In this document: positions 3,994 through 44,028 of the stretch, one piece after another
Layout of the letters: each line of letters opens with the position of its first letter
How positions within the stretch are numbered: the stretch's first letter is position 1
Position numbers and translations under genes: made by a program
Assembly (NCBI RefSeq): GCF_038618305.1
Contig: NZ_CP152017.1
Location: forward strand, 248,001 to 312,000
Origin: Sporosarcina sp. FSL K6-2383
Lineage (GTDB): Bacteria; Bacillota; Bacilli; Bacillales_A; Planococcaceae
Reading direction: 5' to 3'
DNA: 64,000 nt
The notes under the pieces: generated by a model
Database searches by the model: none
Seen by the model: the letters and a program-made list of their open reading frames with translations, nothing else
What the model was told of the DNA's origin: nothing

Positions 3994-4386
3994 ATGAAAC
4001 GCATTGTATTATTTGACGGTGATTGTAATTTTTGTGATTCAAGTGTGCAGTTCATTATTAAACGTGACCCCGCTGCTCATTTTCTTTTCACTTCATTACA
4101 AAGCGACAAAGGTGTCGAGCTTGTGAAGCAATATAATATTCCCGCAGATGTAGACAGCTTGGTGTTAATCGCCAAAGGGAGAGCCTATACAAAATCCTCC
4201 GCTGCATTGCATATCGCAAAAAAATTGGATGGCTTATGGCATCTGTCATTCTTATTTATACTCGTCCCGCGCAAAATTCGTGACGGCGTTTATGATTATG
4301 TGGCAAAAAATCGCTACAAATGGTTTGGCAAAAAGGAAGATGCCTGTATGTTACCACCTCCCGAAATGCGGAAACGATTTATTTGA
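3994..4386 (+). CDS. DCC-family (DUF393) thiol-disulfide oxidoreductase-like protein
   Basis: 130 residues. The N terminus IVLFDGDCNFCDSSVQFI carries the DxxCxxC signature that names the DCC family (DUF393; YuxK-like proteins). A conserved SSAAL segment follows at about residues 70-75, then a WHLS-F-VP-RDGVYDYVAKNRYKWFGKK block typical of the family C terminus. The two cysteines suggest a redox role, but the family's substrate is not established. The ATG at 3994 is chosen because GGGAGG lies 7 bases upstream; a much longer open frame extends upstream without a ribosome site. The stop codon lies inside the terminal palindrome of the repeat element that follows. Confidence 0.88.
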   Translation: MKRIVLFDGDCNFCDSSVQFIIKRDPAAHFLFTSLQSDKGVELVKQYNIPADVDSLVLIAKGRAYTKSSAALHIAKKLDGLWHLSFLFILVPRKIRDGVYDYVAKNRYKWFGKKEDACMLPPPEMRKRFI

Positions 4387-4493
4387 ATTCAGCTGAATTC
4401 AAATAAAGCCTCCGGCGGATGTCACGGATTTTTAAGGGAACTTTTCGAGCGAGCTCGAAAAAATCCGGACGCAATTATGCCGAGGCATAATTG
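4381..4493 (-). repeat. Three-hairpin dispersed element, copy A (inverted)
   Basis: Read on the minus strand, the order is: a palindrome (arms CAATTATGCC/GGCATAATTG), GCGTCC, a long stem CGGATTTTT/AAAAATCCG enclosing TTCGAG/CTCGAA, then TGACATCCGCCGGAGGCTT, then a terminal palindrome with arms ATTTGAATTCAG/CTGAATTCAAAT and no loop. The same order occurs at 35172, 38081 and 43838 with compensating base changes in the stems. The terminal palindrome covers the stop codon of the DCC gene. A small CGGTG/CACCG hairpin lies just beyond at about 4510. Confidence 0.85.
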
Positions 4494-4565
4494 ATTTGAT
4501 GAATCACCACGGTGTTATCACCGCCACGGACTAGGTTATCACCGTCACCGAAATTTTCACGCCAT

Positions 4566-4599
4566 AAAAGGGCTATCCACAATGAGATAGCCCTTTTTT
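4566..4599 (-). terminator. Terminator of the aldehyde dehydrogenase/DUF779 operon
   Basis: Stem AAAAGGGCTATC/GATAGCCCTTTT with an 8-base loop. It follows the DUF779 stop on the minus strand and has T tracts on both sides, so it can also stop plus-strand transcription. Confidence 0.85.
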
Positions 4600-4606
4600 C
4601 GTTCAT

Positions 4607-4963
4607 TCACACTTGTAATTCCTTATTCTCCTCTGCGGTAAACGCCCGTGATCTTGTTAAAAAGCGTTTGCCTTCAACCCCTTCAAGTGAAAACATCCCA
4701 CCGCGCCCATCGACAACGTCAATAATGAGCTGTGTATGCCGCCAATACTCAAATTGGTTTTTATGCATATAAAACGGGGCTCCTCCAATATGTCCAAGAA
4801 GAACATCTTGATTGCCAATAATCAATTCCCCATCTGGATAACACATTGGCGATGAGCCGTCACAGCAGCCTCCCGATTGGTGAAACATCAGTGGACCGTG
4901 TTTTTTCCTCAAAAGCTCCATGAGTTCAAGTGCAGCATCAGTCGCTATTACACGCTCAGTCAT
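4607..4963 (-). CDS. DUF779 family protein
   Basis: 118 residues. The family pattern is clear: ATDAALELMELLRKKHGPLMFHQSGGCCDGSSPMC, then GDVLLG-like and FYMHKNQFEYWRHTQLIIDVVDGRGGMFSLE-type segments and RFLTRSRAFT near the end. The Cys-rich SGGCCDGS-PMC motif is conserved in DUF779 proteins, which are encoded beside acetaldehyde-type aldehyde dehydrogenases in many bacteria; a role in helping that enzyme is suspected but not proven. It lies 21 bases downstream of the dehydrogenase gene in one operon. The ATG at 4963 is preferred over an upstream GTG because the GGAGGAGGG site would be too close to the latter. Confidence 0.88.
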   Translation of the reverse strand: MTERVIATDAALELMELLRKKHGPLMFHQSGGCCDGSSPMCYPDGELIIGNQDVLLGHIGGAPFYMHKNQFEYWRHTQLIIDVVDGRGGMFSLEGVEGKRFLTRSRAFTAEENKELQV

Positions 4964-4984
4964 CCACACCCTCCTCCTTTTCTC

Positions 4985-6526
4985 TTAAAAGAAGCCTTGC
5001 TTGTTTTCATTGTAGCTAACAAGCATATTTTTCGTCTGCTGGTAATGATTCAACATCATGAGATGATTTTCACGACCAACGCCAGATGCTTTGTAGCCAC
5101 CGAATGCAGCATGTGCTGGATAAGCGTGGTAGCAGTTTGTCCACACACGACCTGCTTGAATGCCGCGACCAAAGCGATAGGCTGTATTCATATCACGTGT
5201 CCACACACCCGAACCTAGGCCGTATAATGTATCATTAGCAATTTCAAGTGCTTCCTCTTTCGTTTTAAATGTCGTGACAGATACGACAGGACCAAAAATC
5301 TCTTCTTGGAAAATCCGCATTTTATTGTTGCCTTTAAAGACAGTTGGTTTGACGTAATAGCCGCCTTCCAAATCGCCTTCAAGGTGATTTTGTTCCCCAC
5401 CAATCAGACATTCTGCACCTTCTTGTTTACCAATATCTAAATAGGATAGAATTTTCTCCAATTGTTCAGTCGACGCCTGCGCACCCATCATCACTGTCGG
5501 ATCAAGCGGATTACCGACTTTAATAGCTTTCACTCGCTCTAGTGCACGCTCCATAAATTTATCGTAAATTGATTCTTGGATTAACGCACGTGAAGGGCAT
5601 GTACACACTTCCCCTTGGTTAAGGGCAAACATGACAAAACCTTCTACCGCTTTATCCAAAAATGCATCGTCCTGATCCATTACATCTTCAAAGAAAATAT
5701 TTGGCGATTTTCCACCTAACTCAAGTGTGACAGGGATGGCCGTTTGTGAAGCGTATTGCATAATGAGACGACCTGTTGTTGTTTCACCCGTAAACGCAAT
5801 TTTACCGATGCGTGAGCTTGAAGCTAGCGGCTTCCCCGCCTCTAAACCAAAACCGTTGACGATATTCAATACGCCAGCTGGCAATAAATCTTCAATTAAT
5901 TCCACAAGCACCAAAATAGATGCTGGCGTCTGTTCTGCTGGTTTCAACACGACGCAGTTCCCTGCTGCAAGTGCTGGTGCTAGCTTCCACACAGCCATTA
6001 AAATCGGGAAATTCCAAGGAATGATTTGTCCCACAACACCGATTGGCTCATGGAAATGATACGCTACCGTGTCATTGTCAATCTGACTGACGCCACCTTC
6101 TTGTGCACGAATCGCACTAGCAAAATAGCGGAAATGGTCGATAGCAAGCGGCAAGTCAGCATTCAACGTTTCACGAACTGCTTTGCCATTTTCCCACGTT
6201 TCTGCAACTGCCAGCATCTCCAAATTTTGTTCCATACGATCAGCAATTTTCAATAAAATATTTGAACGTTCCGTAACAGACGTTTTTCCCCAAGCGTCTT
6301 TTGCAGCATGTGCAGCATCCAATGCCAATTCAATATCTTCTGCAGTTGATCGGGCTACCTGTGTAAATACCTTACCTGTCACCGGAGTTGGATTGTCAAA
6401 GTATTGGCCATTCACTGGTGCTGTCCATTTACCGCCGATAAAATTCTCATAACGCTCCTTGAAATTTACCTTTGCTCCTTCTGTGTTCGGAAAAGCATAA
6501 ACTGGATTTTCTACCGTTTGAACCAT
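4985..6526 (-). CDS. NAD-dependent aldehyde dehydrogenase (acetaldehyde/ExaC-AldB type)
   Basis: 513 residues, the usual length for the AldA/ExaC/AldB group (about 506). Visible family features are the N-terminal [23 protein letters not shown], the NAD-binding IIPWNFPI and KPAEQTPAS segments, the general base in [12 protein letters not shown], and the nucleophile in [11 protein letters not shown], where the first Cys is catalytic. The enzyme should oxidise acetaldehyde or similar short aldehydes to the acid in the cytoplasm. The start is the ATG behind AAGGAGG; a longer frame adds 11 residues without a site. It heads an operon with DUF779. A cre-like site lies about 100 bases upstream, so catabolite control by CcpA is likely. 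Confidence 0.92.
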
Positions 6527-6618
6527 TCTCCATTCCTCCTTGTATGTTGAAATTTTCACATCCCGCTACTATACGTTGCAAACCCCTTCAGTATGCATCC
6601 ATCATATTCCAAACGTAA

Positions 6619-6632
6619 TGTATGCGCTTACA
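6619..6632. promoter_or_regulatory. Candidate cre (CcpA) site upstream of the aldehyde dehydrogenase
   Basis: TGTATGCGCTTACA is palindromic and matches the cre consensus TGTAANCGNTTACA except at one position. It lies 93 bases before the dehydrogenase start. CcpA binding is inferred from the match alone. Confidence 0.5.
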
Positions 6633-6756
6633 ATACACCTGAAATAAAAAAGGAGCTCGTCTCCCGACTCTATCAAACTATATAGAATAATTCAATTATT
6701 TGTTTTCGTGATATTTCGACAAGCCACTCATTTCTTCATCAATTGTTAACTTCCCG

Positions 6757-6797
6757 GTAATAATTTGTTCATATTTAACTTTTAGAATAAAGATAAT
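6757..6797 (+). promoter_or_regulatory. htrA promoter with shared CssR-type motif
   Basis: The motif GTAATAATTTGTTCATATTT recurs base for base before prsA (10273). In both places TTCATA acts as a -35 and lies 18 bases from a -10 (GATAAT here, GGTAAT before prsA). CssR controls htrA promoters in B. subtilis, and a CssRS pair is encoded directly downstream, so this is the likely CssR binding region. The assignment is inference. Confidence 0.6.
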
Positions 6798-6818
6798 CAG
6801 ATTGAACGGGAGGAATAA

Positions 6819-8048
6819 ATGATGGATAAAGAGTTAGAAACAATTCAAGAGACTGGGGTAGAAACTGTGCAAGAAATAGTAAAAGCACCTAAGAACAAAA
6901 ACAAGTCAGGTAAACGCTTTTTATCAACAATCGGAGCCGGTGTCATCGGGTCAATGCTAACATTGGGAGTCGTGGTCAATACCGATCTTTTGCAAGCAAG
7001 CTCTGAAGGAAGAATACCCGCCACTTCAAATGTTGCTCCTTATAATGTGCAGCAAACAACCGTAAAAGATCCAACATCACTAGCAGATATGGTGGAGCAG
7101 GCATCCAGCGCGATCGTCGGGGTGGTCAATTACAAAACTGCCGGTAATCGCTTCGCACAAAATACAGAGGCTGTGAATAGTGGAACAGGCTCAGGCGTCA
7201 TTTACAAAATCGTCGACAATAAAGCCTATATCGTCACAAACAATCATGTCATTGAAGGAGCTGAAAAGCTGGAAGTTTCTTTAGAAAGTGGAGAAAAGAC
7301 AACGGCAGAATTAGTGGGTAAAGATGCACTAAGCGATTTGGCTGTACTTACAATCGACGCAAAATATGCCAAATCAGTCCTCGAGTTCGGTAACTCTGAC
7401 CAGATACGCGCAGGCGATGCGGTCGTTGCCATCGGTAATCCACTCGGTCTTGATTTTTCTGGTACTGTGACGCAAGGGATTATCAGCGCAGTCGATCGGT
7501 CCATTAACGTCAATACATCTGCCGGCGAATGGGAAATGAACGTCATTCAAACAGACGCGGCCATTAACCCTGGGAATAGCGGTGGAGCACTACTGAATTC
7601 AGCTGGACAAGTCATCGGCATTAACAGCTTGAAAATTTCCGAAAGTGGTGTTGAAGGACTCGGCTTTGCGATTCCAAGTAACGAAGTTATTCCACTGATT
7701 GAAGAAATGACAATACACGGACAAGTGGAACGCCCGTACATCGGTATCGGGCTTGCAGATCTTTCACAAGTGCCGCCTATGTATTTGCAAAATATTCCAC
7801 AAGAAGTGAAAGGCGGCGTTATGGTCGCAAATGTCGATCCATCATCAGCTGCTGGAAAAGCTGGATTGTTGGCAGAGGACGTCATTACCGCCATTAACAG
7901 CACAGACATTACAAGCTCAACAGAACTACGCAAGTTTTTATATTCTCAACTCAAAGTTGGCGATATCGCTACATTTACGATTTATCGCGGTGCGGAATTA
8001 AAAACAATTGAAGTTACACTGACGAGTAATAAAACAACAACTGAATAA
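6819..8048 (+). CDS. htrA: HtrA-like membrane serine protease with PDZ domain
   Basis: 409 residues. A basic cytoplasmic tail (1-33) is followed by one membrane span (about 34-53), then a trypsin-like domain with the full triad His143 (VTNNHVIEG), Asp173 (LSDLAVL) and Ser254 (NPGNSGGAL). A PDZ domain covers about 305-400 (YIGIGLADL, KAGLLAEDVITAINS). The enzyme degrades or refolds misfolded exported proteins at the outer face of the membrane. The adjacent ATGs at 6819 and 6822 are both served by GGGAGG. It is followed by a terminator and then cssRS, the two-component system that controls htrA in relatives, and its promoter motif is shared with prsA. Confidence 0.95.
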   Translation: MMDKELETIQETGVETVQEIVKAPKNKNKSGKRFLSTIGAGVIGSMLTLGVVVNTDLLQASSEGRIPATSNVAPYNVQQTTVKDPTSLADMVEQASSAIVGVVNYKTAGNRFAQNTEAVNSGTGSGVIYKIVDNKAYIVTNNHVIEGAEKLEVSLESGEKTTAELVGKDALSDLAVLTIDAKYAKSVLEFGNSDQIRAGDAVVAIGNPLGLDFSGTVTQGIISAVDRSINVNTSAGEWEMNVIQTDAAINPGNSGGALLNSAGQVIGINSLKISESGVEGLGFAIPSNEVIPLIEEMTIHGQVERPYIGIGLADLSQVPPMYLQNIPQEVKGGVMVANVDPSSAAGKAGLLAEDVITAINSTDITSSTELRKFLYSQLKVGDIATFTIYRGAELKTIEVTLTSNKTTTE

Positions 8049-8057
8049 TCACTTAGC

Positions 8058-8090
8058 AAAGACCTTTGCCACCGAAGCAAAGGTCTTTCT
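8058..8090 (+). terminator. Terminator after htrA
   Basis: Perfect 12-bp stem AAAGACCTTTGC/GCAAAGGTCTTT with a short loop. The following T tract is weak (TTTCTAGTT), so some read-through into cssR is possible. Confidence 0.7.
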
Positions 8091-8159
8091 AGTTGCATAT
8101 TTCCAATTTCCGATTTACCTTGAAAGTACCTACTATAAAATGAGAGGAGATGCAGCCCA

Positions 8160-8861
8160 TTGAAAATTCTAGTAATTGAAGATAACGAAAGCGTTTCTTC
8201 AATGATTGAACTCTTTTTCTCAAAGGAAGGCATCGAAGGAGAATTCGTCAAAGACGGTCTCAAAGGCTATCGCCGTGCAAGTGAGGAGCATTGGGACTGC
8301 CTAATTGTCGATTGGATGCTGCCAGGAATGGATGGCGTGTCCATTTGCCGGAAGCTAAGGCAAGAAAAATATGCAGGTCCGATTATTATGCTCACCGCGA
8401 AAGATAGCGAATCAGACCAAGTACTCGGGCTTGAAATGGGTGCAGACGACTATGTCACAAAACCATTTAGCCCACTCGCTCTGATGGCGCGCATTAAAGC
8501 CGTGACACGCAGGTATTCCTCACAACAAGTGGACGTGCCGGAAGAAGGCATCATTGAAACCATTCATTTTAAAATCAATCACAATACACGCGAGGTAATG
8601 TTAGACAACAAGCCCGTCCTCAATTTAACACCAAAAGAATTCGATTTACTGTCCCATTTCGCCCAGCATCCAAAACAAGTCTTTTCTCGTGAGCAATTAT
8701 TAGACAATGTCTGGGGCTATGATTTCTATGGCGATGACCGCACCGTAGACGTTCACATCAAGCGACTCCGTACGAAAATTGCAACAGACGAGCAACCGTT
8801 TTTCCACACTGTCTGGGGCGTTGGCTATCGATTTGATGAAACAATAGGTGAATCCAAATGA
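8160..8861 (+). CDS. cssR: OmpR-family response regulator (CssR-like)
   Basis: 233 residues. The receiver domain spans 1-115, with the acidic pocket ED at 7-8, the phospho-acceptor Asp51 (LIVDWMLPG), Thr of MLTAKDSE and Lys of DDYVTKPF. A winged-helix output domain covers about 130-228 (LTPKEFDLLSHFA, then GDDRTVDVHIKRLRTKI and VWGVGYRF). The start is a TTG behind GAGAGGAG. The histidine kinase gene overlaps by 4 bases. The position between htrA and prsA fits CssR, which senses secretion stress. The symbol rests on domain type and neighbours rather than on sequence comparison. Confidence 0.82.
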   Translation: MKILVIEDNESVSSMIELFFSKEGIEGEFVKDGLKGYRRASEEHWDCLIVDWMLPGMDGVSICRKLRQEKYAGPIIMLTAKDSESDQVLGLEMGADDYVTKPFSPLALMARIKAVTRRYSSQQVDVPEEGIIETIHFKINHNTREVMLDNKPVLNLTPKEFDLLSHFAQHPKQVFSREQLLDNVWGYDFYGDDRTVDVHIKRLRTKIATDEQPFFHTVWGVGYRFDETIGESK

Positions 8862-10264
8862 AAGTTAAATATCTATACCAGCAATTAGCCAGTCACGTAA
8901 GCGTCATCCTCATCGCCTTTTTAATATTGAGTTTGCTGTTCTCTCATTATATCGAGCAATTTGTCTATGATAATAAAACCGAAGAACTCGCGACTTATGG
9001 ACAAACTATCTTACGCGACCTTGATCGCAATCCTCGTAACTCAACAAGCACCTTGCAAGCCTATGAACATGTGCTAAACGGTCGTGATATTCAATACATT
9101 TTATTCGACGAGCAATCCGCTATCATTTATTCTACCGAACTAAAAGCACCAGTCATTGGGCTGTTGAGTGAGGAAGAGTGGCAGGAGATTAAAAACGGCA
9201 AAACCGTTACGGTCAAACAAGACTTTAAACGCTTCAACGAAGCCGTTACATTTGTCCTGCTTCCCTACGTCCAAAACAATCAATTTGTTGGCGGCATCCT
9301 GTTGACTTCTCCCATTAAAGGCTCACGGGAAGTCATTACTCAAATGAATACCTATCTGTTATTTACAATGGTGCTCGCACTAGCGGTCGCATTATTACTC
9401 AGCTGGATTTTATCGAATTTCCACGGTAAACGTATCAAACGACTTCGAGAAGCTACTTCGATTGTTGCACAAGGGGATTACTCTGTACGTATCCCATCCG
9501 CTAATGTCGATGAGATCGGTGAACTTGCTGATGACTTCAACAAAATGGTGGAGAAATTGAATGTGTCCATGGAGGAAATCGAAAGCCTGGAAAATCGACG
9601 ACGCCAGTTCATGGCGGATGTTTCCCATGAGCTACGAACGCCACTAACAACCATTCGTGGCATCATCGAAGGTATGAGAAATGACATGATTTCTGAAACA
9701 GAAAAAGAAAAAGGTTTCCAGCTTGCCAGTAACGAAACAATGCGACTCATTCGTCTCGTTAATGAAAACCTGGATTACGAAAAAATTCGTTCCAACCAAA
9801 TTACACTGCTTAAACAAGATATCCAACTCGTTGAACTACTAGAAATTATTAAAGATCAGCTTGAAGGTGTTGCAGCTGAACAGCAGAATACGATTATCGT
9901 TGACGTAAATCCGACTGTGACTGTGCATGCTGATTATGATCGGCTCACCCAGATTTTGATTAACATCACGAAAAACAGTATTCAATTTACCGACAATGGA
10001 TCTATCTTTTTGCGCGGCTATGTGCAAGATGATATGACTATTATTGAAATTGAAGACACCGGCATCGGCATTGATCCAGAAAATGTTGAAAAAATATGGG
10101 GACGCTTTTATAAAGCGATTGTTTCGCGGACTACGAATCCATATGGAGAGTTCGGACTCGGCCTATCAATCGTTAAACAGCTCGTCACCATGCATAACGG
10201 AACGATTGAAGTGACCAGTGAGCAAGGAAAAGGCACCAAATTTACGATTTTACTACCGAACTAG
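8858..10264 (+). CDS. cssS: Sensor histidine kinase (CssS-like)
   Basis: 468 residues. The membrane spans are at about 14-30 and 166-185, with an extracytoplasmic sensor loop of about 135 residues between them. A HAMP domain follows (about 186-240), then the dimerisation domain with His257 in DVSHELRTPLTTIRG, and an ATPase domain with IEDTGIGIDPENVEKIW and GLGLSIVKQLV. The ATG overlaps the cssR stop, so the pair is co-translated. It should detect misfolded protein outside the membrane and phosphorylate CssR. The loop size and context agree with CssS, but other sensory roles cannot be excluded. Confidence 0.82.
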   Translation: MKVKYLYQQLASHVSVILIAFLILSLLFSHYIEQFVYDNKTEELATYGQTILRDLDRNPRNSTSTLQAYEHVLNGRDIQYILFDEQSAIIYSTELKAPVIGLLSEEEWQEIKNGKTVTVKQDFKRFNEAVTFVLLPYVQNNQFVGGILLTSPIKGSREVITQMNTYLLFTMVLALAVALLLSWILSNFHGKRIKRLREATSIVAQGDYSVRIPSANVDEIGELADDFNKMVEKLNVSMEEIESLENRRRQFMADVSHELRTPLTTIRGIIEGMRNDMISETEKEKGFQLASNETMRLIRLVNENLDYEKIRSNQITLLKQDIQLVELLEIIKDQLEGVAAEQQNTIIVDVNPTVTVHADYDRLTQILINITKNSIQFTDNGSIFLRGYVQDDMTIIEIEDTGIGIDPENVEKIWGRFYKAIVSRTTNPYGEFGLGLSIVKQLVTMHNGTIEVTSEQGKGTKFTILLPN

Positions 10265-10272
10265 ACTCCTCC

Positions 10273-10313
10273 GTAATAATTTGTTCATATTTTCGATGTA
10301 CCATGAAGGTAAT
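10273..10313 (+). promoter_or_regulatory. prsA promoter, twin of the htrA promoter
   Basis: The same 20-bp motif as at 6757 (GTAATAATTTGTTCATATTT), with TTCATA, an 18-base spacer and GGTAAT. The identical geometry at two genes that flank cssRS supports joint control by CssR. Confidence 0.6.
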
Positions 10314-10335
10314 CAATGATTTTGGAGGAGAATAC

Positions 10336-11205: not shown

Positions 11206-11216
11206 AGGATGAGAAA

Positions 11217-11249: not shown

Positions 11250-11255
11250 CATCAT

Positions 11256-22467: not shown

Positions 22468-23076
22468 TTAAAAGATCGCTCTGTACCATTCCGCCGCCGC
22501 GTCCACTTCTGTCCGCGTCAACGAATGGCCGTTCATTTCCCAATGTACCTTCACTTGTGCCCCTGCAACTGTCAGCAGTTCATCCAACTCCTCCGCTTCT
22601 TGCGCTGAACACATCGGATCATTTTTCCCCGCCGCCATAAATACCGAAGCACCCGATAAATCTGGAAGGTCAATGCCCCGCCTTGGAACCATCGGGTGAT
22701 GCAAAATCGCACCTTTCAATGCGCCTGCATGATGGAACAACAAGCTCGCAGCAATATTCGCTCCATTGGAATAACCAATTGCCATGATATTCGATCGGTC
22801 AAATCCGTATTTCAGAGCTGCTTCATCAAGAAATTCATTCAATTCCTTCGTCCGGAAAATTAAATCCTCCTCATCGAAAATACCTTCTGCCAATCTGCGG
22901 AAAAAGCGTGGCATCCCATTTTCAAGAACATTTCCCCGAATACTCAATACCGAAGCCGCCGGGTCAATTAAATCGGCAAGTGACAATAAATCATTTTCCG
23001 TCCCGCCCGTACCGTGAAGCATTAGCAAAACTGGCTTTGCAGCATTTGTTCCTTCTTTGAATATATGTTTCATCAT
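22468..23076 (-). CDS. mhqD: Alpha/beta hydrolase, MhqD-like carboxylesterase
   Basis: 202 residues. The phospholipase/carboxylesterase fold is clear: LLMLHGTGGTENDLL (oxyanion region), RGNVLENGMPRFFRRLAEGIFDEEDLIFRT, nucleophile elbow GYSNGAN with the catalytic Ser, GKNDPM with the Asp and NGHSLT with the His. The N-GMPRFFRR-EG-FDEEDL block is typical of MhqD, which B. subtilis induces under quinone and electrophile stress through MhqR. A matching inverted repeat lies 22 bases upstream. Two adjacent ATGs can serve as start. Confidence 0.82.
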   Translation of the reverse strand: MMKHIFKEGTNAAKPVLLMLHGTGGTENDLLSLADLIDPAASVLSIRGNVLENGMPRFFRRLAEGIFDEEDLIFRTKELNEFLDEAALKYGFDRSNIMAIGYSNGANIAASLLFHHAGALKGAILHHPMVPRRGIDLPDLSGASVFMAAGKNDPMCSAQEAEELDELLTVAGAQVKVHWEMNGHSLTRTEVDAAAEWYRAIF

Positions 23077-23115: not shown

Positions 23116-23184
23116 AGTTTATCAAATAGAATGTTCGTTGTCAAAAAGGTTGCTCTGCAAGGACCAGTTTCTCGATTTGCACTG

Positions 23185-23320
23185 CCTAACTTCCAGGTTA
23201 CACTGACTATCCACTGGTTTTCACTGACTAACCTTCGGGTTACACTGACTAAATAGATTTGCACTGACTAACCTCCAGGTTGCACTGACTATCCACTAGT
23301 TTTCACTGACCAACGCCACT
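23185..23320. repeat. Degenerate intergenic repeats, about 20-22 bp period (locus 2)
   Basis: Seven units share the core TTNCACTGACTA, followed alternately by ACCTYCRGG or TCCACTRG. The block fills the space between the mhqD operator and the DUF3238 gene. An open frame across it shows the repeat in its translation (SLTNLRVTLTK) but has no ribosome site. Confidence 0.7.
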
Positions 23321-29444: not shown

Positions 29445-29468
29445 TGTGATGAAAATCGAATATTTTTC

Positions 29469-29560
29469 GCCACTAGGGGAGTCTTTTAAAGGCTGAGACG
29501 CATATGCATATGCGGACCCTTGGAACCTGATCTGGATCATACCAGCGTAGGGAAGTGGGA
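29469..29560 (+). promoter_or_regulatory. TPP riboswitch (thi box)
   Basis: The conserved THI elements appear in order: CTAGGGGAGTC, GGCTGAGA, GACCCTTGGAACCTGATCTGG and ATACCAGCGTAGGGAAGTGG. The aptamer binds thiamine pyrophosphate and lowers expression of the tenA-thiM-thiD-thiE-thiW operon. CAGCG within the aptamer can pair with CGCTG just before a run of seven T (about 29543-29577), so one terminator is built directly on the aptamer; a second lies at 29595. Confidence 0.95.
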
Positions 29561-29594
29561 CTGCGCTGTTTTTTTATTGACCAAACCATCGTGG

Positions 29595-34962: not shown

Positions 34963-34996
34963 CAAAAAATCCCTCCGAAATAAGTATCGGAAGGAT
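34963..34996 (-). promoter_or_regulatory. Leader terminator (attenuator) of the ABC-F gene
   Basis: On the minus strand, ATCCTTCCGA pairs with TCGGAGGGAT, followed by five further T residues, only about 20 bases before the ribosome site. Such a hairpin upstream of an ABC-F gene is typical of ribosome-mediated attenuation. A possible 10-codon leader peptide starts near 35160, but its ribosome site is too close to the ATG to be convincing. Confidence 0.65.
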
Positions 34997-35171
34997 CAGT
35001 CACTATATATCCGTTTTAAAAGCTCCCTAAAAAGACCCGTTGCATACGCAATGAGCAAGGAAATGACTTAAAAATGGACAGACTAATCCTATTTTCCGTG
35101 TGAATAAAAAATTCAATTTCTCGGAATCAAAGATTAGTTATACATCGTCCACTCGTCATTCCCTTCTTAAT

Positions 35172-35298
35172 CAATTACGCCTCGGCGTAATTGCGTCCAA
35201 ATTTTGAATTGCGCAAGCGCAATTAACTCCTTTCAAAATTTGTGACATCCGCCGGAGGCTTAACTTGAATCAGCAATGAATTTCCGCTGGTTTAAGTT
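35172..35298 (+). repeat. Three-hairpin dispersed element, copy B
   Basis: Palindrome with arms CAATTACGCC/GGCGTAATTG, GCGTCC, a stem CAAATTTT/AAAATTTG enclosing ATTGCG/CGCAAT, then TGACATCCGCCGGAGGCTT, then a terminal stem AACTTGAATCAGC/GCTGGTTTAAGTT with an 11-base loop. It lies between the ABC-F leader and the phosphatase gene. Confidence 0.85.
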
Positions 35299-35340
35299 AA
35301 AGTTACAGATAGTATAACACACTATTCTGTTTACCAAAAA

Positions 35341-35877
35341 TTAATTCCAAACCCTCTTCACGTCAGCCCTATCGTCCGTAATCCGCACCTGATACACATC
35401 CGGATTCGACAATGCTTGCCATCCCTTAAAACCAAACTGCTCATCGTAAAAATTTAACAACAACGCCATCAAATTCCCGTGCGTCACAAGTATAGTTCTT
35501 GAACCATCCCCCAGCTCATCAACCACATTATACACACGTGACATTGCTTCATTGGAAGACTCCCCGCCCTCATATATCAAATCTAGATCGGAAAAAGTAT
35601 CCTCCAACTTCACCAACCAATCTTCTAAATCATGTGAACTTAGCACACGCTCCGTCAGCCGACTATCCACTTCCACATGCAGTTTTTTCCTTTCCGCAAT
35701 CGGCCAAGCAGAGCGCCGCGCCCGCTGAAACGGACTCGAAATAATACGATCAACCTCAATCTCGTCAAAAAACTTTGCGAGCTCTTCCGCCTGTAAAATG
35801 CCTTCCGCAGTTAAATCTGCATGCGGTGGTTGACCTTCCGCTGAACAATGACGCACGATGTAGATTATCTTTTCCAA
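35341..35877 (-). CDS. Histidine phosphatase family protein
   Basis: 178 residues. The phosphoglycerate-mutase-like pattern is present: IIYIVRHCSAEGQ (RHG box with Cys in place of Gly), ADLTAEGILQAEELAKFF, IISSPFQRARRSAWPIAE, LTERVL and the second catalytic His in TILVTHGNLMALLL. These enzymes remove phosphate from small molecules or proteins through a phosphohistidine; the substrate is not evident. The start is a TTG with GGGGGTAGAG upstream. It is monocistronic. Confidence 0.87.
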   Translation of the reverse strand: MEKIIYIVRHCSAEGQPPHADLTAEGILQAEELAKFFDEIEVDRIISSPFQRARRSAWPIAERKKLHVEVDSRLTERVLSSHDLEDWLVKLEDTFSDLDLIYEGGESSNEAMSRVYNVVDELGDGSRTILVTHGNLMALLLNFYDEQFGFKGWQALSNPDVYQVRITDDRADVKRVWN

Positions 35878-37072: not shown

Positions 37073-37080
37073 ACAGCAGA

Positions 37081-37124
37081 AAGTTCCCTACTCTAAAAAC
37101 TTTAGAATAGGGGACTTATTTTTA
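37081..37124. terminator. Terminator between the HAD and HprK-like genes
   Basis: Long stem AAGTTCCCTACTCTAAA/TTTAGAATAGGGGACTT with a 3-base loop followed by a T-rich tract. It separates convergent genes. Confidence 0.88.
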
Positions 37125-38039: not shown

Positions 38040-38080
38040 GACGGTCCCCCCTCTACTCATCCACTTGACTTTCCATTAAT

Positions 38081-38271
38081 CAATTACGCCTCGGCGTAAT
38101 TGCGTCCAGATTTTTTCGAGCTCGCTCGAAAAGCTCCTCTAAAAAATCTGTGACATCCGCCGGAGGCTTTATCTTCGTTCAGCTGGCGTTTGAACACACG
38201 ATGAACAGGAACACAAAACTACATTCATCTCGCCACCTATAGAGGTGGGAGTCTTCTGCTGAATGAAGATA
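38081..38271 (+). repeat. Three-hairpin dispersed element, copy C (long form)
   Basis: Palindrome CAATTACGCC/GGCGTAATTG, GCGTCC, a stem CAGATTTTTT/AAAAAATCTG enclosing CGAG/CTCG, TGACATCCGCCGGAGGCTT, then a terminal stem TATCTTCGTTCAGC/GCTGAATGAAGATA enclosing about 73 bases, which contain the hairpin CCACCT/AGGTGG and then GGGAGTCTTCT. It is exactly as long (191 bp) as copy D. Confidence 0.87.
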
Positions 38272-38586
38272 AATATGAAACAAGTATATCAAATAACCTC
38301 TCTACTTATTAATTTTAAAGGATGCAAAAAAATCCTTGATATCCAATTTGGCCCCTTCGTACTATTCATTTGTTCAAACCCTATAAATCTGCCGGAAATT
38401 TTGAATAAAACATATCGGATTCAAAAGCAAAGCGCATTATGTAAAGATAAAATTTACGCCTTAATCCCTAATGATTCTAACTATTTTATTTCCGCTAATA
38501 ATTCAATGTTTACCTTGATTCACTATGCTATTTATACTTTTTATATACTTTTTAAAACAAATTTTTACTAACTCTAAAAGCATATA

Positions 38587-38784
38587 TTGACACACCCATT
38601 TTTCTCTGCTAAATTAACATCTAACAATACAAATCTATGACAGAAAAAAGTACGATTAGAACCCTATTCTAGCAAGAGATAAAGCTGTAATTTCACAACT
38701 TCGACGGTTTACTACCGTTATATGGGTTACGTATGAGTAAAATTGCGAGCACAAACTCGTCCCTTCCTCGGGTCGAGTTTTTTT
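38587..38784 (+). promoter_or_regulatory. yitT-type leader with promoter and terminator, possible riboswitch
   Basis: A strong promoter (TTGACA at 38587, 17 bases, TAAATT) would start an RNA of about 160 bases that ends in a terminator at 38753-38784: AAACTCGTCCC pairs with GGGTCGAGTTT (one mismatch) before seven T. Upstream of it, GCGAG (38745-38749) can pair with CTCGT of the terminator arm, a mutually exclusive fold. A hairpin ACGGT/ACCGT and the pair TTTACT/AGTAAA lie further upstream. The region matches no riboswitch class that I recognise. Confidence 0.6.
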
Positions 38785-38817
38785 ATTTACACAAGTCGGA
38801 AGGAGATTTACTAGTTA

Positions 38818-39623
38818 TGAAAAATATGATTGTCGTTCTTGGCTCGCTCATTGTTGCATTTGCGTTTAACTGCTTTCTCGTGCCTTTCGGGATCTTAAGC
38901 AGCGGGATTAGCGGAATCGCTATCCTACTCGGGTTACTCACGCCCTTTAACATAGGGCTATTGAATCTTGTACTTAACATCCCTTTACTTGTTCTTGGCT
39001 ACTACAAACTCGGCAAAACCATTACCATTAACACGATGATTTGTGTCGTGTCGCTTTCAGCCTTCCTCTACATAATTCCCGTCGTCGCAGTGACAGACAA
39101 TATTATGTTGTCTACGGTTTTTGGTGGAGGTATTGGCGGGATTGGTGTTGGCCTTATTCTTAAATACTCAGGAACTTCCGGCGGCTTAGACATCATTGCT
39201 ATTATCGTGTCCCGTACAAGCTCCTTCAGCATTGGTCTTCTTCTCACAGGAATGAATGGCATCATTGTCCTACTATCCGGATTTTTCTTTGACTGGGAAC
39301 TCGCATTATATACAATGTTATCCATCTACATCACGGGTAAAATGATCGACACCATCTTCACCGATCATGTCAAATTAACGATGCAAATTGTCACCACAAA
39401 AGGTGACTTAATCCGCAACGAATTACTGGAATCCATCTATCGTGGCATTACGATTACAGAGGGGTACGGGGGCTATACGCAGGAAAAGAAAGATATTCTA
39501 ATGATGGTCGTCACACGTTATGAGACGCTGAACATTAAAAAAATTGTACGAAAGTATGACGAAGATGCGTTTATTAATATTTATGAGACAGTTGAGGTCG
39601 ACGGCAAGTTTCATGTGAATTAA
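38818..39623 (+). CDS. YitT-family membrane protein (DUF161-DUF2179)
   Basis: 268 residues. Five to six hydrophobic segments fill residues 3-175, with the family motifs FNCFLVPFGILSSGISGIAILLG and GGIGVGLILKYSGTSGGLDIIA. A cytoplasmic DUF2179 domain follows at about 190-265 (LTMQIVTTKGDLIRNELLESIYRGITITEGYGGYTQEKKDILMMVVTRYE). YitT proteins are common in Firmicutes and their transport substrate is unknown. The ATG at 38818 is preferred because GGAAGGAG precedes it; the longer frame runs back through the leader terminator. Confidence 0.88.
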
Positions 39624-39682
39624 ATACCTTTACCCTTTTTAAGCTGAACTATTCGGTTTCTCCGAACAGTTCACGGCCTATC

Positions 39683-39731
39683 AAAAAATGCCCCATTTGA
39701 AACAACTCAAAGTTGTTTCAAATGGGGCATT
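39683..39731 (-). terminator. Terminator of the SDR gene
   Basis: A very long perfect stem (arms begin AATGCCCCATTTGAAAC) with a 3-base loop. The minus-strand T tract identifies it as the SDR terminator. A second hairpin, GAAC-TTCGG/CCGAA-GTTC, lies at 39651-39673 after the YitT gene. Confidence 0.88.
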
Positions 39732-39741
39732 ATACTATCTA

Positions 39742-40500
39742 TTAATAAGCAGTCCATCCTGCATCTGCAGTAATAACTGTACCATTCACAAAGCTCGAAT
39801 CATCTGAAGCTAGGAACAACGCGACCTTCGCAATATCTTCAGGCTTACCAATGCCAGGATTAATCGCAAGTCCTGGTTGGACACGCCCCATACCAAATTG
39901 GCTAACACCTGTCATCGAAGAGCTGATATTCGTTTCAACCGCGCCTGGCGCAATCGCATTACATCGAATGCCATCCTTCGCGTACATAAAGCCTGTATTT
40001 TTTGTAAATCCAACAACCGCATGTTTAGAAGCTGTATAAGCTCCACCTGCACGCGCACCGTATAATCCGCCGGCAGAAGCGATATTAATAATGACACCTT
40101 GTTCTTTCGCCTGGAAAATCGGCAACACTTTACGCGTTGAGCGCATCACACTTGTCGTGTTAACGGCAAAAATCCGCTCCCATTTGTCATCTTCAATTTC
40201 TCCTGCTGGTTCAAAATTATCCATAATGCCTGCATTATTTACCAACACATCTACTGTGCCATATGTGCTGACAGTTGTATCAATTAAGTTTTCAATGTCC
40301 TCATTTTTACCAACATTCGCAACGACAGTCATTGCTTCGCCGCCACCCGATTTAATTTCCTCTACGACCGCATTCGCGGAATCAGCGTTAATATCAGAAA
40401 CAATCACTTTTGCTCCTTGCTGTGCATAAAGAATAGCTATCGCTTTTCCCATACCTGAGCCGGCTCCTGTTACCACTGCAACTTTGTCTTGAAGTTTCAT
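39742..40500 (-). CDS. Short-chain dehydrogenase/reductase (SDR), 1
   Basis: 252 residues, a classic SDR. The cofactor motif is VVTGAGSGMGKAIA, followed by NNAG (VLVNNAGIMDNFE), the catalytic Ser in IINIASAGGLYGARAGGAYTASKHA with the YxxxK pair, and APGAVETNI and SSFVNGTVITADAGW at the end. The substrate is not predictable. It is divergent from a TetR gene with a TAGACA/TGTCTA inverted repeat between them, so it is probably controlled by that protein. Two more SDR/TetR pairs occur at 54.8 and 57.2 kb. Confidence 0.9.
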   Translation of the reverse strand: MKLQDKVAVVTGAGSGMGKAIAILYAQQGAKVIVSDINADSANAVVEEIKSGGGEAMTVVANVGKNEDIENLIDTTVSTYGTVDVLVNNAGIMDNFEPAGEIEDDKWERIFAVNTTSVMRSTRKVLPIFQAKEQGVIINIASAGGLYGARAGGAYTASKHAVVGFTKNTGFMYAKDGIRCNAIAPGAVETNISSSMTGVSQFGMGRVQPGLAINPGIGKPEDIAKVALFLASDDSSFVNGTVITADAGWTAY

Positions 40501-40636
40501 GTTAATTCCTCCTCGTCAATTTGAATACGCTTTCACTGCTATTTTAGTGAACAAGTGTTGATTATCTTTCATCTATAGTATAATCGATTTTAAAGACAAC
40601 ATTCAATCAGTAAAGAACAAGCCAATCGTTGATTAG

Positions 40637-40662
40637 TAGACAGTTTTATAATGTTTTGTCTA
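40637..40662. promoter_or_regulatory. TetR operator candidate (TAGACA-N14-TGTCTA)
   Basis: The inverted repeat lies just upstream of the TetR ribosome site in the gap between divergent genes. The same half-sites occur before the TetR gene at 55690. Confidence 0.55.
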
Positions 40663-40685
40663 TTTATTATAAAAAGAGGATGATT

Positions 40686-41270
40686 ATGATGTCTGACCAA
40701 TTAACCAGTGTCGATAGAAGAATTCGAAAATCTAAAGCTGCGTTGAAGGAAGCGCTCCTAACCTTAATGCGAACAAAGGATTTTAAAAAGATTTCCATCA
40801 CGGATATTGTGCAACTAGCCGACCTCAATCGCGGAACATTTTATAAACATTATCAATATAAAGAAGAACTGCTGGAAGAAATAATCGATGACGTCATGAA
40901 AAATTTAACTGAATCATACCGCGCTCCTTATGAAGAGATAGGAAACTTTGATGTGAGCAAATTAACCGCTTCAGCCATTAAAATATTCCAACACGTAGCC
41001 ACATACGCCAGCTTTTATACGTTACTCGGTCGGTCAAATAGTCTAACTGGGTTCCAAACCCGAATCTGCGATGAACTAACACAACTTCTCTTTCAAGATC
41101 TATCCCAATCCCATGCGCCCCTAAATTCTGACATCAATCCAAAAATGTTGGCCAGTTATCAGGCTTACGCCATCTGGGGAATGATTATTGAATGGATTGA
41201 CAGTGAATTTCATTATACATCCGACTATATGGCCGAGCAATTACTGGTGATTGTTCAGCGCAATCCTTAA
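40686..41270 (+). CDS. TetR-family regulator, 1
   Basis: 194 residues. The N terminus RIRKSKAALKEALLTLMRTKDFKKISITDIVQLADLNRGTFYKHYQYKEELLEEII is the HTH region of the TetR subgroup with a TetR_C_8-like C-terminal domain (DhaS-type). ATGs at 40686 and 40689 are both near AGAGGATG. It is divergent from SDR 1 and close in type to the regulator at 55690, which is paired with SDR 2. A role as local repressor of the SDR gene is inferred from arrangement and operator. The ligand is unknown. Confidence 0.87.
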   Translation: MMSDQLTSVDRRIRKSKAALKEALLTLMRTKDFKKISITDIVQLADLNRGTFYKHYQYKEELLEEIIDDVMKNLTESYRAPYEEIGNFDVSKLTASAIKIFQHVATYASFYTLLGRSNSLTGFQTRICDELTQLLFQDLSQSHAPLNSDINPKMLASYQAYAIWGMIIEWIDSEFHYTSDYMAEQLLVIVQRNP

Positions 41271-41299
41271 CCATCAATTCAAGTAGAGGCAGTGATCAT

Positions 41300-42064
41300 A
41301 TGACAACAAATCTCTATATAAATAACAGTAAATTCATCGCAGGAATGACCATGAAAAATGACGCCGAACCTGAACATAACAACATGGCGCTTCATGCTTG
41401 CGAAAATTCTAAACGCATTGTGGAAAATCGCCAAAAACTAGCTATATCTTTACAATACGAGCTCGACGATTTTGTCTGTGCCAATCAAACCCATAGCGCC
41501 AATTTCCATCGCGTAACGCCGGAGGACAAAGGGCGAGGCGCGAGACAAATGGATACTGCCATCACCGATACAGACGCCCTGTATACCTACGAGCCTAACA
41601 TCGTATTATGCAGCTTCACAGCCGATTGCGTACCCGTGATTTTTTACAATGAAGTGAAGGGACTCATTGGCGTCATCCATTCTGGATGGCAGGGCACCGC
41701 CAAAGAGATTACCTTGAAGCTTTTTGAGCATCTAACGCAAGCGGAGCAGTGTAATCCAAGTGATTTCCACGTCCAAATTGGCGTAGCATTAAGCCAGGAA
41801 AAATTTGAAGTAGATGAAGATGTCTATGTGAAATTCAAGAACCTTGGCTATGCGGATGAATTTATGTACCACAACGAGCAAACCCATAAATATCACATTG
41901 ATAATCAACTAACTGTACAAAAGCAATGTGTGTTAGCTGGGATTCCAGCAGAACAAATTATGATGGACCGGACATGTACCTATGTAGATCCGAGTGGTTT
42001 TTCTTATCGAGAAGATAAAAAGTCTGGAAGGCATTTGAGCTTTATTGTGAGGAAAGGTGATTGA
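41300..42064 (+). CDS. PgeF/YfiH-family (laccase-domain) protein
   Basis: 254 residues. The Cu-oxidase_4 pattern is present: FVCANQTHSANFHRV with a metal-binding His, SFTADCVPVIFYN with Cys, and GVIHSGWQGTAKEI with His, then a C-terminal CTYVDPSGFSYREDKKSGRHLSFI. Proteins of this family (YlmD, PgeF) act on purine nucleosides or remove wrongly inserted residues from peptidoglycan. The housekeeping copy normally lies near ftsZ/divIVA, so this one is likely a paralogue. ATG with GAGG 10 bases upstream; 30 bases after the TetR gene and possibly co-transcribed. Confidence 0.85.
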   Translation: MTTNLYINNSKFIAGMTMKNDAEPEHNNMALHACENSKRIVENRQKLAISLQYELDDFVCANQTHSANFHRVTPEDKGRGARQMDTAITDTDALYTYEPNIVLCSFTADCVPVIFYNEVKGLIGVIHSGWQGTAKEITLKLFEHLTQAEQCNPSDFHVQIGVALSQEKFEVDEDVYVKFKNLGYADEFMYHNEQTHKYHIDNQLTVQKQCVLAGIPAEQIMMDRTCTYVDPSGFSYREDKKSGRHLSFIVRKGD

Positions 42065-42269
42065 CTAGCTAACGATTGATTTCATCAGCGATGCAAAATG
42101 TGCAACCGTTTTAAACTTCTTACCCAATGCTGTTATCAGAATGCACGTCATTGGGAATACGTATGTAGAGGATGAGGTTTTACATCTTTTCAATCGGGTA
42201 TGCTTTCTATAGCTTATCGATCCCAAACAATGACGGTAAAAGTGGAGCAATATAAGGAGTGTTTCAGTT

Positions 42270-43457
42270 ATGAAAGAAAAATTAATGGATATGTTGGAGG
42301 AACGAAAAGATGAAATGATTCAAATCCGTCGTTTTTTACATGAGCACCCTGAATTATCCTTCCAAGAAGAAAAAACAGCACAATATATTATCGACTTTTA
42401 CAAAGGAAAAGACGTGGATGTCCAAACTAATGTCGGAAACGGTTACGGAATTATAGTAACAATCTTAGGTGGGAAACCTGGAAAGACCATTGGATTACGC
42501 GCAGATTTTGATGCGCTTCCCATTGTGGAGGAAACGCCTGTACCGTTCAAGTCGAAAAATGAAGGCGTCATGCATGCATGTGGACATGATGGTCATACAG
42601 CCTATTTATTAGTCCTTGCCGATTGTTTGATTCAACTGAAATCCGAACTATCCGGCACTATAAAAATCATTCATCAGCATGCCGAAGAGGTTCCCCCAGG
42701 CGGAGCGAAAAGTATTGTAGAATCAGGTCTTCTGGATGATCTCGATGAAGTGTATGGCATTCATTTATTACCAATCGCGCCTGCTGGAATGGTTGCCTAC
42801 AATAAAGGCTATGCTTTCAATGGACGAGCATATATGAAATTAAAAATACAAGGCAGAGGTGGGCATGGATCGTCACCTCACTTGGCAAATGATGCGATTG
42901 TTGCAGGCGCTCACTTTGTAACCGCAGTTCAAACGATCATCAGTCGTAGATTAAGCCCATTTGATGTTGGCGTCATCACAATTGGTTCATTCGACGGGGC
43001 TGGTACGTTTAACGTCATTAAAGATAGCGTCGTGCTTGAAGGTGATATCCGTTATATGACGGTTGAAACAAAAGAAACGATAGAACGAGAGATAAAACGT
43101 CTTGTTAAAGGGCTTGAGACAGAGTTTGATGTCAGTTGTGAACTGACGTATGCGCCGGATTATCCGCCCCTATACAATAATCCCGAACTGACCGAAAAAG
43201 TAGCTGAAGCACTAAGAAATGCGCATATAAAAGAAATTACAGAGGTAAAAGAAGTACCACCCATGGCGCCTTCCGAGGATTTTGCTTACTATGCTGAAAA
43301 ATTTCCTGCTTGTTTCTTTTATATTGCGTGTTCACCAAAAGGCGTCGAAAAACCCTATTTCAACCACCATCCCAAATTTGATATCGACGAAGATGCACTC
43401 CTCATTGCAGCAAAAGCTGTTGGACAGGTTGTTTGTAGTATGCAAGGTAGCCGATAG
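42270..43457 (+). CDS. M20-family amidohydrolase
   Basis: 395 residues. The metal ligands are visible: GLRADFDALPIVEET, HACGHDGHTAYLL with two His, HQHAEEVPPGGAKS with the catalytic Glu, and YGIHLLP. The lid domain begins at FNGRAYMKLKIQGRGGHGSSPHLANDAI. The last ligand is in the NHHPKFDIDEDAL segment. It belongs to the N-acyl amino acid/hippurate amidohydrolase group, which cleaves amide bonds of small acyl amino acids. ATG behind AAGGAG. The 205 bases before it contain no credible gene, though a plus-strand frame near 42130-42210 could be a decayed remnant. Confidence 0.9.
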   Translation: MKEKLMDMLEERKDEMIQIRRFLHEHPELSFQEEKTAQYIIDFYKGKDVDVQTNVGNGYGIIVTILGGKPGKTIGLRADFDALPIVEETPVPFKSKNEGVMHACGHDGHTAYLLVLADCLIQLKSELSGTIKIIHQHAEEVPPGGAKSIVESGLLDDLDEVYGIHLLPIAPAGMVAYNKGYAFNGRAYMKLKIQGRGGHGSSPHLANDAIVAGAHFVTAVQTIISRRLSPFDVGVITIGSFDGAGTFNVIKDSVVLEGDIRYMTVETKETIEREIKRLVKGLETEFDVSCELTYAPDYPPLYNNPELTEKVAEALRNAHIKEITEVKEVPPMAPSEDFAYYAEKFPACFFYIACSPKGVEKPYFNHHPKFDIDEDALLIAAKAVGQVVCSMQGSR

Positions 43458-43466
43458 TTGAATAAA

Positions 43467-43523
43467 ATAAGGTGTCTAATTCCGAAACGATTGGATATTG
43501 TTTCAGAACTAGACACCTATTTT
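43467..43523. terminator. Terminator between the amidohydrolase and heme protein genes
   Basis: Long imperfect stem AAGGTGTCTAATTCCGAAAC/GTTTCAGAACTAGACACCTATT with an 11-base loop and T-rich ends on both strands. It separates convergent genes. Confidence 0.8.
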
Positions 43524-43747
43524 CATTTCCAATGATTATTGGCGAGCGCTACTGTTTGAAAATGGATGGCAATGACTTGTGATGCCAGTGTTAGGCTATC
43601 TGCATCCGCTTCATACTTCGGTCGTAAATCCTTGCGAATCTCCGCTGAGGGTTGAGTATAAGCTACACCTTTTCTCGCGAGCATAATCGCCAGTTCAAAT
43701 CCCTGTTGAGGTGTCTCTGTCTTTAAGCTAGGAAGCCAGTCAGTCAT
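43523..43747 (-). CDS. Hexameric tyrosine-coordinated heme protein (HTHP)
   Basis: 74 residues, the normal size for HTHP. The pattern WLPSLKTETPQQGFELAIMLARKGVAYTQPSAEIRKDLRPKYEADADSLTLASQVIAIHFQTVALANNHWK fits the family, in which six chains form a ring and each heme iron is bound by a tyrosine. The founding member, from a marine alphaproteobacterium, shows weak peroxidase and catalase activity. The ATG follows AAAGGAGG. A 17-bp inverted repeat lies 23 bases upstream, so expression is likely controlled. The gene stands alone in a Firmicute genome, possibly acquired. Confidence 0.82.
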   Translation of the reverse strand: MTDWLPSLKTETPQQGFELAIMLARKGVAYTQPSAEIRKDLRPKYEADADSLTLASQVIAIHFQTVALANNHWK

Positions 43748-43770
43748 AAGAAAATCCTCCTTTAGTTTTC

Positions 43771-43787
43771 AAGATAAGTTGTATCTT
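43771..43787. promoter_or_regulatory. Operator candidate before the HTHP gene
   Basis: Perfect inverted repeat AAGATA-N5-TATCTT. The half-sites resemble those of the MhqR-type operator at 23098 (TATCT/AGATA) with a shorter spacer. Confidence 0.5.
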
Positions 43788-43837
43788 AAATATAGCAAAT
43801 AGATTCGCAAGAGTCCAAAAGTTATTACTTATTTAAT

Positions 43838-44028
43838 CAATTACGCCTCGCGTAATTGCGTCCAGATTTTGAATCGAGCTTGCTCGATTAACTCCTTTCA
43901 AAATCTGTGACATCCGCTGGAGGCTTTATCTTTATTCAGCCAGCGTTTGGACACCCCCTGAACAGGAAAACAAAATCTCATTCCTCACAACACCTATTGT
44001 GGTGGGAGTCTTCTGCTGAATAAAGATA
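43838..44028 (+). repeat. Three-hairpin dispersed element, copy D (long form)
   Basis: Palindrome CAATTACGC/GCGTAATTG, GCGTCC, a stem CAGATTTT/AAAATCTG enclosing ATCGAG/CTCGAT, TGACATCCGCTGGAGGCTT, then a perfect terminal stem TATCTTTATTCAGC/GCTGAATAAAGATA enclosing a middle part like copy C with CACC/GGTG and GGGAGTCTTCT. It ends 16 bases before the lipoprotein stop codon. Confidence 0.87.

Follow-up and report, generated by a model that had tools for sequence, protein, structure and literature searches.

The window analysed here, a stretch of 64,000 nucleotides from Sporosarcina sp. FSL K6-2383 (contig NZ_CP152017.1, positions 248,001 to 312,000), contains four copies of a hairpin-rich element of about 110–190 bp. 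An earlier note, made from the letters of the sequence alone, had described a palindrome, a double-stem hairpin and a terminal inverted repeat in one fixed order, and all four copies exist in that order within approximately 3 nt of where it had placed them. Each consists of a first hairpin (P1), a second stem (P2), a conserved core and a terminal stem, whose inner arm opens with a short stretch termed here the guide. Copy 1 lies on the minus strand at 4383–4495, with its 5' end (ATCAAT) at 4495 and a covariance-model match at 4407–4495; its guide, TTTAT (4403–4407), is complementary to 4378–4382, the putative target flank ATAAA, so assigned by analogy with copies for which empty sites are available. 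The remaining three are on the plus strand. Copy 2 occupies 35170–35296 (model match 35170–35260) and its TTAA guide (35260–35263) is complementary to 35297–35300, within the target flank TTAAA at 35297–35301. Copy 3, a long form, occupies 38079–38268 (model match 38079–38168). Its parts are P1 (CAATTACGCC TC GGCGTAATTG; 38081–38102), P2 with its apical part (GTCCAGATTTT..AAAATCTGTGAC, with a U bulge; 38104–38154), the core GTGACATCCGCCGGAGGC (38150–38167), whose GTGAC closes P2, the guide TTTAT (38168–38172), a loop module resembling the reverse complement of IS200/IS605 (TnpB) left ends (38206–38274) and the target flank ATAAA (38269–38273). Copy 4, also of the long form, occupies 43836–44025 (model match 43836–43925), with the guide TTTAT at 43925–43929 and a probable target flank ATAGA, one mismatch away from the guide, at 44026–44030; its sequence has TGACATCCGCTGGAGGCTT, which corrects an earlier description. 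The loop of the terminal stem is absent from copy 1, where the stem closes at once, and measures about 70 nt in copies 3 and 4.

A simple copy comprises, in order, P1 (ATCAATYACGCC TC GGCGTRATTG), P2 (GTCCAGATTTT ... AAAATCTGTGAC, with an apical hairpin), the core and the terminal stem, and the GCC-GGA-GGC part of the core can close a small loop. In a Lysinibacillus sub-family a large part of the P2 stem is exchanged for GGAATCGG/CCGATTCC. The two ends of the element are not inverted repeats of one another, being ATCAA on one side and target-derived ATAAA or TTAAA on the other in end logos from 114 elements. Copies 1 and 2 folded whole, and copies 3 and 4 over their first ~100 bases, give folding z-scores of −6.3, −6.8, −5.4 and −4.7, respectively, and for each of them not one of 200 shuffles reached so good a fold; the whole of copy 3 gives −5.8.

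The stems also covary. When 33 simple copies from the own genome were assessed with RNAalifold and with pair counts against shuffles, 97.5% of cells were paired (91.7% in shuffles) and both sides had changed in 9 of 30 pairs (4.8 in shuffles); further pair types, one of five measures, did not rise above shuffles (16 versus 16.6). With 104 aligned copies from several genera all five measures exceeded shuffles, 98.6% of cells being paired against 89.8% in shuffles and 33–43% in slid controls, with both sides changed in 18 of 28 pairs; this alignment was fitted to the covariance model and its related copies are not independent. The earlier proposal that compensating changes mean a fold is kept, in RNA or single-stranded DNA, is supported as regards the fold. 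Part of the apparent compensation is however an element–target match, since the outermost terminal-stem bases on one side belong to the host target. Covariation would equally befit a structured RNA, in which the top strand is transcribed, the fold acts in regulation, processing or stability, and spread is secondary. A search of Rfam with the copy 3 region alone gave no match at E ≤ 10, and at gathering scores across the window there was nothing at the copies save an 8-base overlap at copy 2. This overlap stems from a match to ncr1575 (RF02452; 34963–35177, minus strand, 92.7 bits) in the spacer that holds copy 2 (34963–35341), the end of which reaches the first 8 bases of the element.

The element is abundant, as searches of this and other genomes revealed far more copies than the original four, and the refuting outcome named in the earlier note, an absence of additional copies, did not occur. 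The own genome (3.67 Mb) has 57 exact copies of the core 20-mer and none of its reversed control, whilst the covariance model matches it at 126 places (E ≤ 0.01), four of them inside the window; a second Sporosarcina genome, G219 (G and L numbers denote genomes and loci), has 110 matches. A core 18-mer is present in 93 of 261 genomes of the order, spanning 10 of 19 genera, at 0–93 copies per genome (67 in the own genome, G000, and 59 in G167). A wider sample of 398 genomes from the class yielded it in 8, and 7 of these belong to the same family. Among the matches listed, from at least 120 loci, Sporosarcina, Lysinibacillus, Psychrobacillus and Solibacillus predominate. Phage records gave no match and viral contigs one; on plasmids only the loop module was matched, in two records, one from Ruminococcus upstream of tnpB and one from Brevibacillus beside a short zinc-ribbon gene. 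Exact matches in Oceanicella (L068) and Marinobacter (L092) were rejected as chance because the flanking fold is absent. An assembly labelled Arthrobacter beigongshangensis REN13 carries elements (L095, L106, L110, L120, L125, L128, L154, L155, L163 and L174) and is apparently a misnamed Sporosarcina. A 15-mer of the core is absent from the full text of 5.39 million papers, and none of nine papers listed on repeats and miniature inverted-repeat transposable elements of Sporosarcina and Lysinibacillus deals with such an element, judging by titles and abstract openings.

Comparison with relatives shows that the elements are mobile. Candidate empty orthologous sites were available for 22 distinct elements representing 21 insertions, of which eight were judged clean (L010, L086, L103, L116, L276, L284, window copy 2 and L301 at 19221) and one, L301 at 7305, has a single mismatch; the remaining 12 are not clearly callable, mostly because their flanks have diverged too far. 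None of the eight clean insertions has a target duplication, and in each the last 4–5 bases of the 3' arm of the terminal stem pre-exist in at least one empty relative. Some empty relatives are one base off, with TCAAA for TTAAA or ACAAA for ATAAA; for L301 at 19221 the window sequence differs more and G167 has TTAAA. By guide class, two of the eight have TTTAT guides beside ATAAA and six have TTAA-type guides beside TTAA. A single spacer (34965–35341) has received three different insertions among relatives, each with empty orthologues: one in G167 (also in G218), copy 2 in the window, and one in G219. Orthologues empty for copy 2 carry TTAAA in G185, G186 and G219 and TCAAA in G200, and at the same site G167 bears a footprint of the kind that a deletion between two TTAC repeats would leave. 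G167 lacks all four window copies at the orthologous places, and there the flanks of copies 1 and 4 are too altered for a clean empty site to be called. Insertions fall nearly always between genes: none of 42 own copies lies within an open reading frame, and of 115 distinct elements one does. Where sites could be resolved, the target is not duplicated. The element itself defines the 5' (P1) end, and its 3' end lies directly against a short target sequence, in most cases ATAAA or TTAAA. Together with patchy copy numbers and an interior that has no room for a gene, these empty sites support the suggestion of a new family of non-autonomous mobile elements.

The choice of target appears to be written in the element. 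The stretch right after the core (GGAGGC followed by TTTAT or TTTAA) is usually complementary to the target of its own copy, and the terminal stem therefore extends beyond the element into the host flank. This was examined with stems anchored on their inner bases alone, a procedure which retained 151 of 234 copies and dropped 83. Of the five outer positions, the anchored copies pair 4.29 on average, against 2.99 with shuffled partners and a maximum of 3.20 over 2000 partner shuffles; all five are paired in 89 copies, four in 38 and three or fewer in 24. Exact matches to the own target were found for 36 of 42 TTTAT, 19 of 25 TTTAA and 13 of 22 TTAAC guides, the last class being TTAA plus the first element base, and no crossed guide–target pair was seen among the three classes, although the copies counted are related and not independent events. 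The stems are near-perfect over 14–20 bp, with 67 different 8-base starts among the 151; ends which could not be called had been left out beforehand (P1 in 64, P2 in 48 and the terminal stem in 46 of 197).

Perfection in so many different sequences lends some weight to another origin of the pairing, in which the element is mobile but its stem is perfected only later, through repair that uses the hairpin as template and writes the flank sequence into the inner arm, with no selection of the target by a guide. The correction of imperfect palindromes is a known process. Against this, TTAAA or ATAAA is already in place at empty sites, and the TTTAT and TTTAA guide classes never cross, so that the targets are not random. 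Repair after insertion is accordingly regarded as an unlikely source of the match, albeit one with an appreciable chance.

A link to the IS200/IS605 elements emerges from the long copies, whose terminal loop carries the module resembling the reverse complement of TnpB-element left ends. Such left ends are found at Sporosarcina loci. In a search of transposase loci, the best E-value at a locus without a copy is 2e-5, and reversed queries give no match; the stronger matches come from L378, where a copy of the element is present. The core model has no match in 62 transposase-bearing (TnpA/TnpB) loci. L378 is among 30 later loci outside that search, and there the copy (~2967–3189) lies about 1.3 kb from a Y1 fragment (Lysinibacillus, G044). 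Furthermore, where the window has copy 3, G167 has a TnpB element; on the bottom strand each of the two lies directly against TTTAT, and their other ends agree within about 2 nt. The IS200/IS605 TnpB elements of Sporosarcina (L052, L191, L198, L200, L205 and L217, and C46 of G167) thus share with the present family a left end of the form TTTAT followed by C and a AGAAGACTCYCACTTC-type hairpin, the target TTTAT and one common insertion place. They differ in that the present family is without tnpB and tnpA, has another right end and holds its guide within a long stem.

Orientation relative to replication is in keeping with this link. Replication strands were assigned by the GC skew of whichever sampled stretch lay closest and not from a mapped origin; in the own genome the skew (49 stretches) turns near 0.45–0.5 and 2.3 Mb. 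In 79 of 113 own matches (binomial p = 2.8e-5) the bottom strand of the element coincides with the G-rich leading strand, as it does in 78 of 106 in G219 (p = 1.3e-6), the counts having used 113 of the 126 own model matches (E up to 3e-6) and 106 of the 110 in G219. Elements that insert into the lagging-strand template should be biased in this direction, and such a preference is documented for IS608 and ISDra2 (PMC6006769). In the own genome the orientations split 15 to 5 in spacers between divergent or convergent genes.

The four copies are most probably, at a rough probability of 0.7, non-autonomous mobile elements of the palindrome-associated transposable element (PATE) type, relatives of IS200/IS605 which are moved by a Y1 transposase in trans and choose their target by guide pairing. 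A Y1 enzyme of the TnpA type, supplied in trans, would cut the bottom strand, on which the terminal stem would form the left end and P1 the right end. The element would then move as single-stranded DNA and insert 3' of TTTAT or TTTAA in the lagging-strand template, the target being selected through pairing to the inner guide. A change of guide would give rise to families with a new target, and in most high-copy genomes the transposase would by now be broken or lost.

Among the closest known systems are the PATEs of Haloquadratum walsbyi (PMC3119063), which likewise contain no gene, have palindromes related to IS605-type ends, a likeness seen here at the terminal-stem end of long copies, cause no target duplication, possess a short targeting oligonucleotide, harbour small mobile repeats nested in their palindromes, and show strain-specific insertions despite nearly all IS200-type transposases being broken. 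The present family, by contrast, is bacterial, extends over 10 of the 19 genera of its order and has one common P1–P2–core fold; its terminal stem runs into the target, with guide–target covariation, and P2 also nests hairpin modules. A further parallel is IS608 with engineered extended pairing, where, according to PMC5934647, DNA–DNA pairing of a left-end stretch 3' of the palindrome sets the target, which can be reset by changing the transposon. That pairing was engineered and lies upstream of the tetranucleotide; here it is natural and involves the target bases next to the cut. The elements are best read as mechanistically most like IS200/IS605 and by kind a PATE, though the position of the guide differs and no related right end was found for P1, and hence as a new family of IS605-type PATEs with unusually plain guide–target pairing.

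A number of observations weigh against this assignment. Likeness to IS605 palindromes is present at the terminal-stem end of long copies, but the P1 end is like no IS605 right end seen with the core model in the 62 transposase loci. Read on the bottom strand, the matching stretch is 3' to the left-end stem, and Y1 left ends carry their guide 5' of the hairpin foot (PMC6006769). An IS605 family of Halanaerobium has no strand preference (10 of 22; PMC7290912). Gene direction is correlated with replication orientation and could contribute to the bias: among 105 elements with two flanking genes, both genes read the bottom strand in 55 and both the top strand in 10. Wobble pairs add to this. Read on the top strand, G.T outnumbers A.C by 46 to 7 in the 104 copies, by 28 to 7 over their distinct P1, P2 and P2-apex helices and, in the separate set of terminal stems, by 70 to 23; a separate count of P2 alone runs in the opposite direction, with 7 G.T and 17 A.C. 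The excess favours a folded top strand, where IS605-type movement would fold the bottom one, and indicates either a role for the top strand or some mutational bias.

The wobble bias in P1, the terminal stem and the P2 apex is, along with covariation, what speaks for a structured RNA. Read-through transcription as its source is nevertheless unsupported, as the bias stays at 45 to 14 in sites where both neighbours read the opposite strand, which also counts against an RNA function. Moreover, few sites (10 of 105, versus 55 of 105 in the other sense) are tandem in the top sense, the arrangement that would suit an RNA transcribed from the folded strand, copy number ranges from 0 to 93 within one genus, and Rfam had no counterpart to copy 3. 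With copies virtually absent from open reading frames too, the structured-RNA family raised as an alternative in the earlier note has little support, and an RNA function as the primary explanation is considered quite improbable.

The distribution of candidate mobilisers poses a difficulty for a Y1 enzyme in trans. In a search confined to these families, the window itself has no match to Y1, TnpB or RVT_1, consistent with the earlier observation that it encodes no obvious mobiliser. The only Y1 gene of the own genome is broken, and G219 has copies without any Y1 match. Among 32 Lysinibacillus genomes surveyed for Y1, ten with an intact TnpA have no copies, and five of the six with the highest copy numbers have no Y1 match (G027, G046, G049, G057 and G058, at 34–85 copies); G044, with 62 copies, has Y1 pieces only. 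Both TnpA and copies are found in G048 (30 copies), G035 (8), G055 (3), G039 (1) and G056 (1), and six genomes have neither. These surveys in the two genera rule out TnpA as a simple predictor of copy number. The PATEs of Haloquadratum present the same puzzle of insertions though Y1 transposases are broken (PMC3119063).

A reverse transcriptase offers one way around the difficulty, with an RNA of the top strand pairing with the target in the manner of a group II intron before reverse transcription. Guide–target pairing and the top-strand wobble bias would suit it, as would part of a survey of 40 chosen genomes, in which RVT_1 is found in 9 of 9 Lysinibacillus genomes with copies and in 6 of 11 without. 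In Sporosarcina, however, the figures are 6 of 10 with copies and 8 of 10 without, intron ends are lacking when compared with the consensus, and RVT_1 has no match in the own genome or in G167, with their 67 and 59 core 18-mers. A reverse transcriptase is rejected as the mobiliser for these two genomes, and RNA-mediated insertion is very unlikely to account for the family.

The elements could alternatively be repetitive extragenic palindromic (REP) sequences moved by a REP-associated tyrosine transposase (RAYT). Like REPs and bacterial interspersed mosaic elements, they are intergenic, high-copy and hairpin-forming, and RAYT-sized Y1 genes occur in the genus, one of them, at L242, having a D-like module (see below) beside it (1959–1994). 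A GTRG (GT[AG]G) foot was not found at P1, the one end examined for it, the ends are of another kind, matching IS605 left ends instead, and the own genome, G167 and G219 are without an intact RAYT-sized Y1 gene. An origin from REPs seems remote on these grounds. The foregoing points can also be combined, such that each copy has its own DNA guide, the inner arm of a stem closing on the target, guide and target have changed together many times in a natural reprogramming, the mobiliser is not a resident Y1, the fold of the top strand, as RNA or single-stranded DNA, is selected, and some new enzyme or step is involved. Taken as a whole, this combination is held only tentatively and is the less likely course beside a Y1-mobilised PATE.

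Further hairpin modules lie nested within the elements, inside P2 in 17 of 57 own copies and in some also in the terminal region. Module D (GGCC..GGTCA..CGTT..) nearly always accompanies the core, with 47 occurrences near it and 2 alone. Its hairpin loops (ACAGGATGT, GACAGGACGTC) recall the CsrA consensus; a reading as a CsrA-binding RNA was dropped because the Lysinibacillus loops differ (ACGAT, GTGAT). Module C (AATCGAAC..GTTCGATT TGCC..TTTCTGC..GCAGAAATTAAGGCA) is a separate small palindromic repeat found alone or inside the hairpin loops of elements, as at L283 (~2370), L166 (~7171, minus strand) and L356 (~8308); 16 occurrences are near a core and 9 alone, at least two of the latter being the opposite strand of an element. 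Module U (a GCGAAAGCG-type hairpin, for example TGCGCGAAAGCGTAGTGCTAACG) is another small repeat in hairpin loops, seen at L073, L102, L157 and elsewhere, with 27 occurrences near a core and 18 of 45 outside elements. Modules C and U behave like the small repeats which target the PATE palindromes of Haloquadratum (PMC3119063). At L067 (minus strand, ~500–690) an unrelated structured insert of about 120 nt lies within one P2 loop.

Elsewhere in the window, a 37-nt repeat (TATACTACCAATAATG..GTCTATATGGAT) is present at 54629–54665, 57110–57146 and 62717–62753, the outer copies being 76% and 86% identical to the middle one. Tandem-like CACTGACTAAC repeats occupy 23174–23314, upstream of the reading frame at 22468–23076, and a thiamine pyrophosphate (TPP) riboswitch lies at 29465–29570 (83.8 bits).

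In practical terms, these elements are worth masking in RNA and covariation screens, since more than 100 copies per genome (126 and 110 model matches) resemble structured RNA. For IS608, laboratory work has reprogrammed the choice of target by DNA–DNA pairing (PMC5934647). Some 150 natural copies from several genera, in which guide and target are seen together, now provide data on which pairs work. In bacteria, too, the family raises the puzzle of the Haloquadratum PATEs, for which fresh insertions are described alongside broken Y1 transposases (PMC3119063), and it offers clear-cut genomes in which to test how such elements are mobilised.

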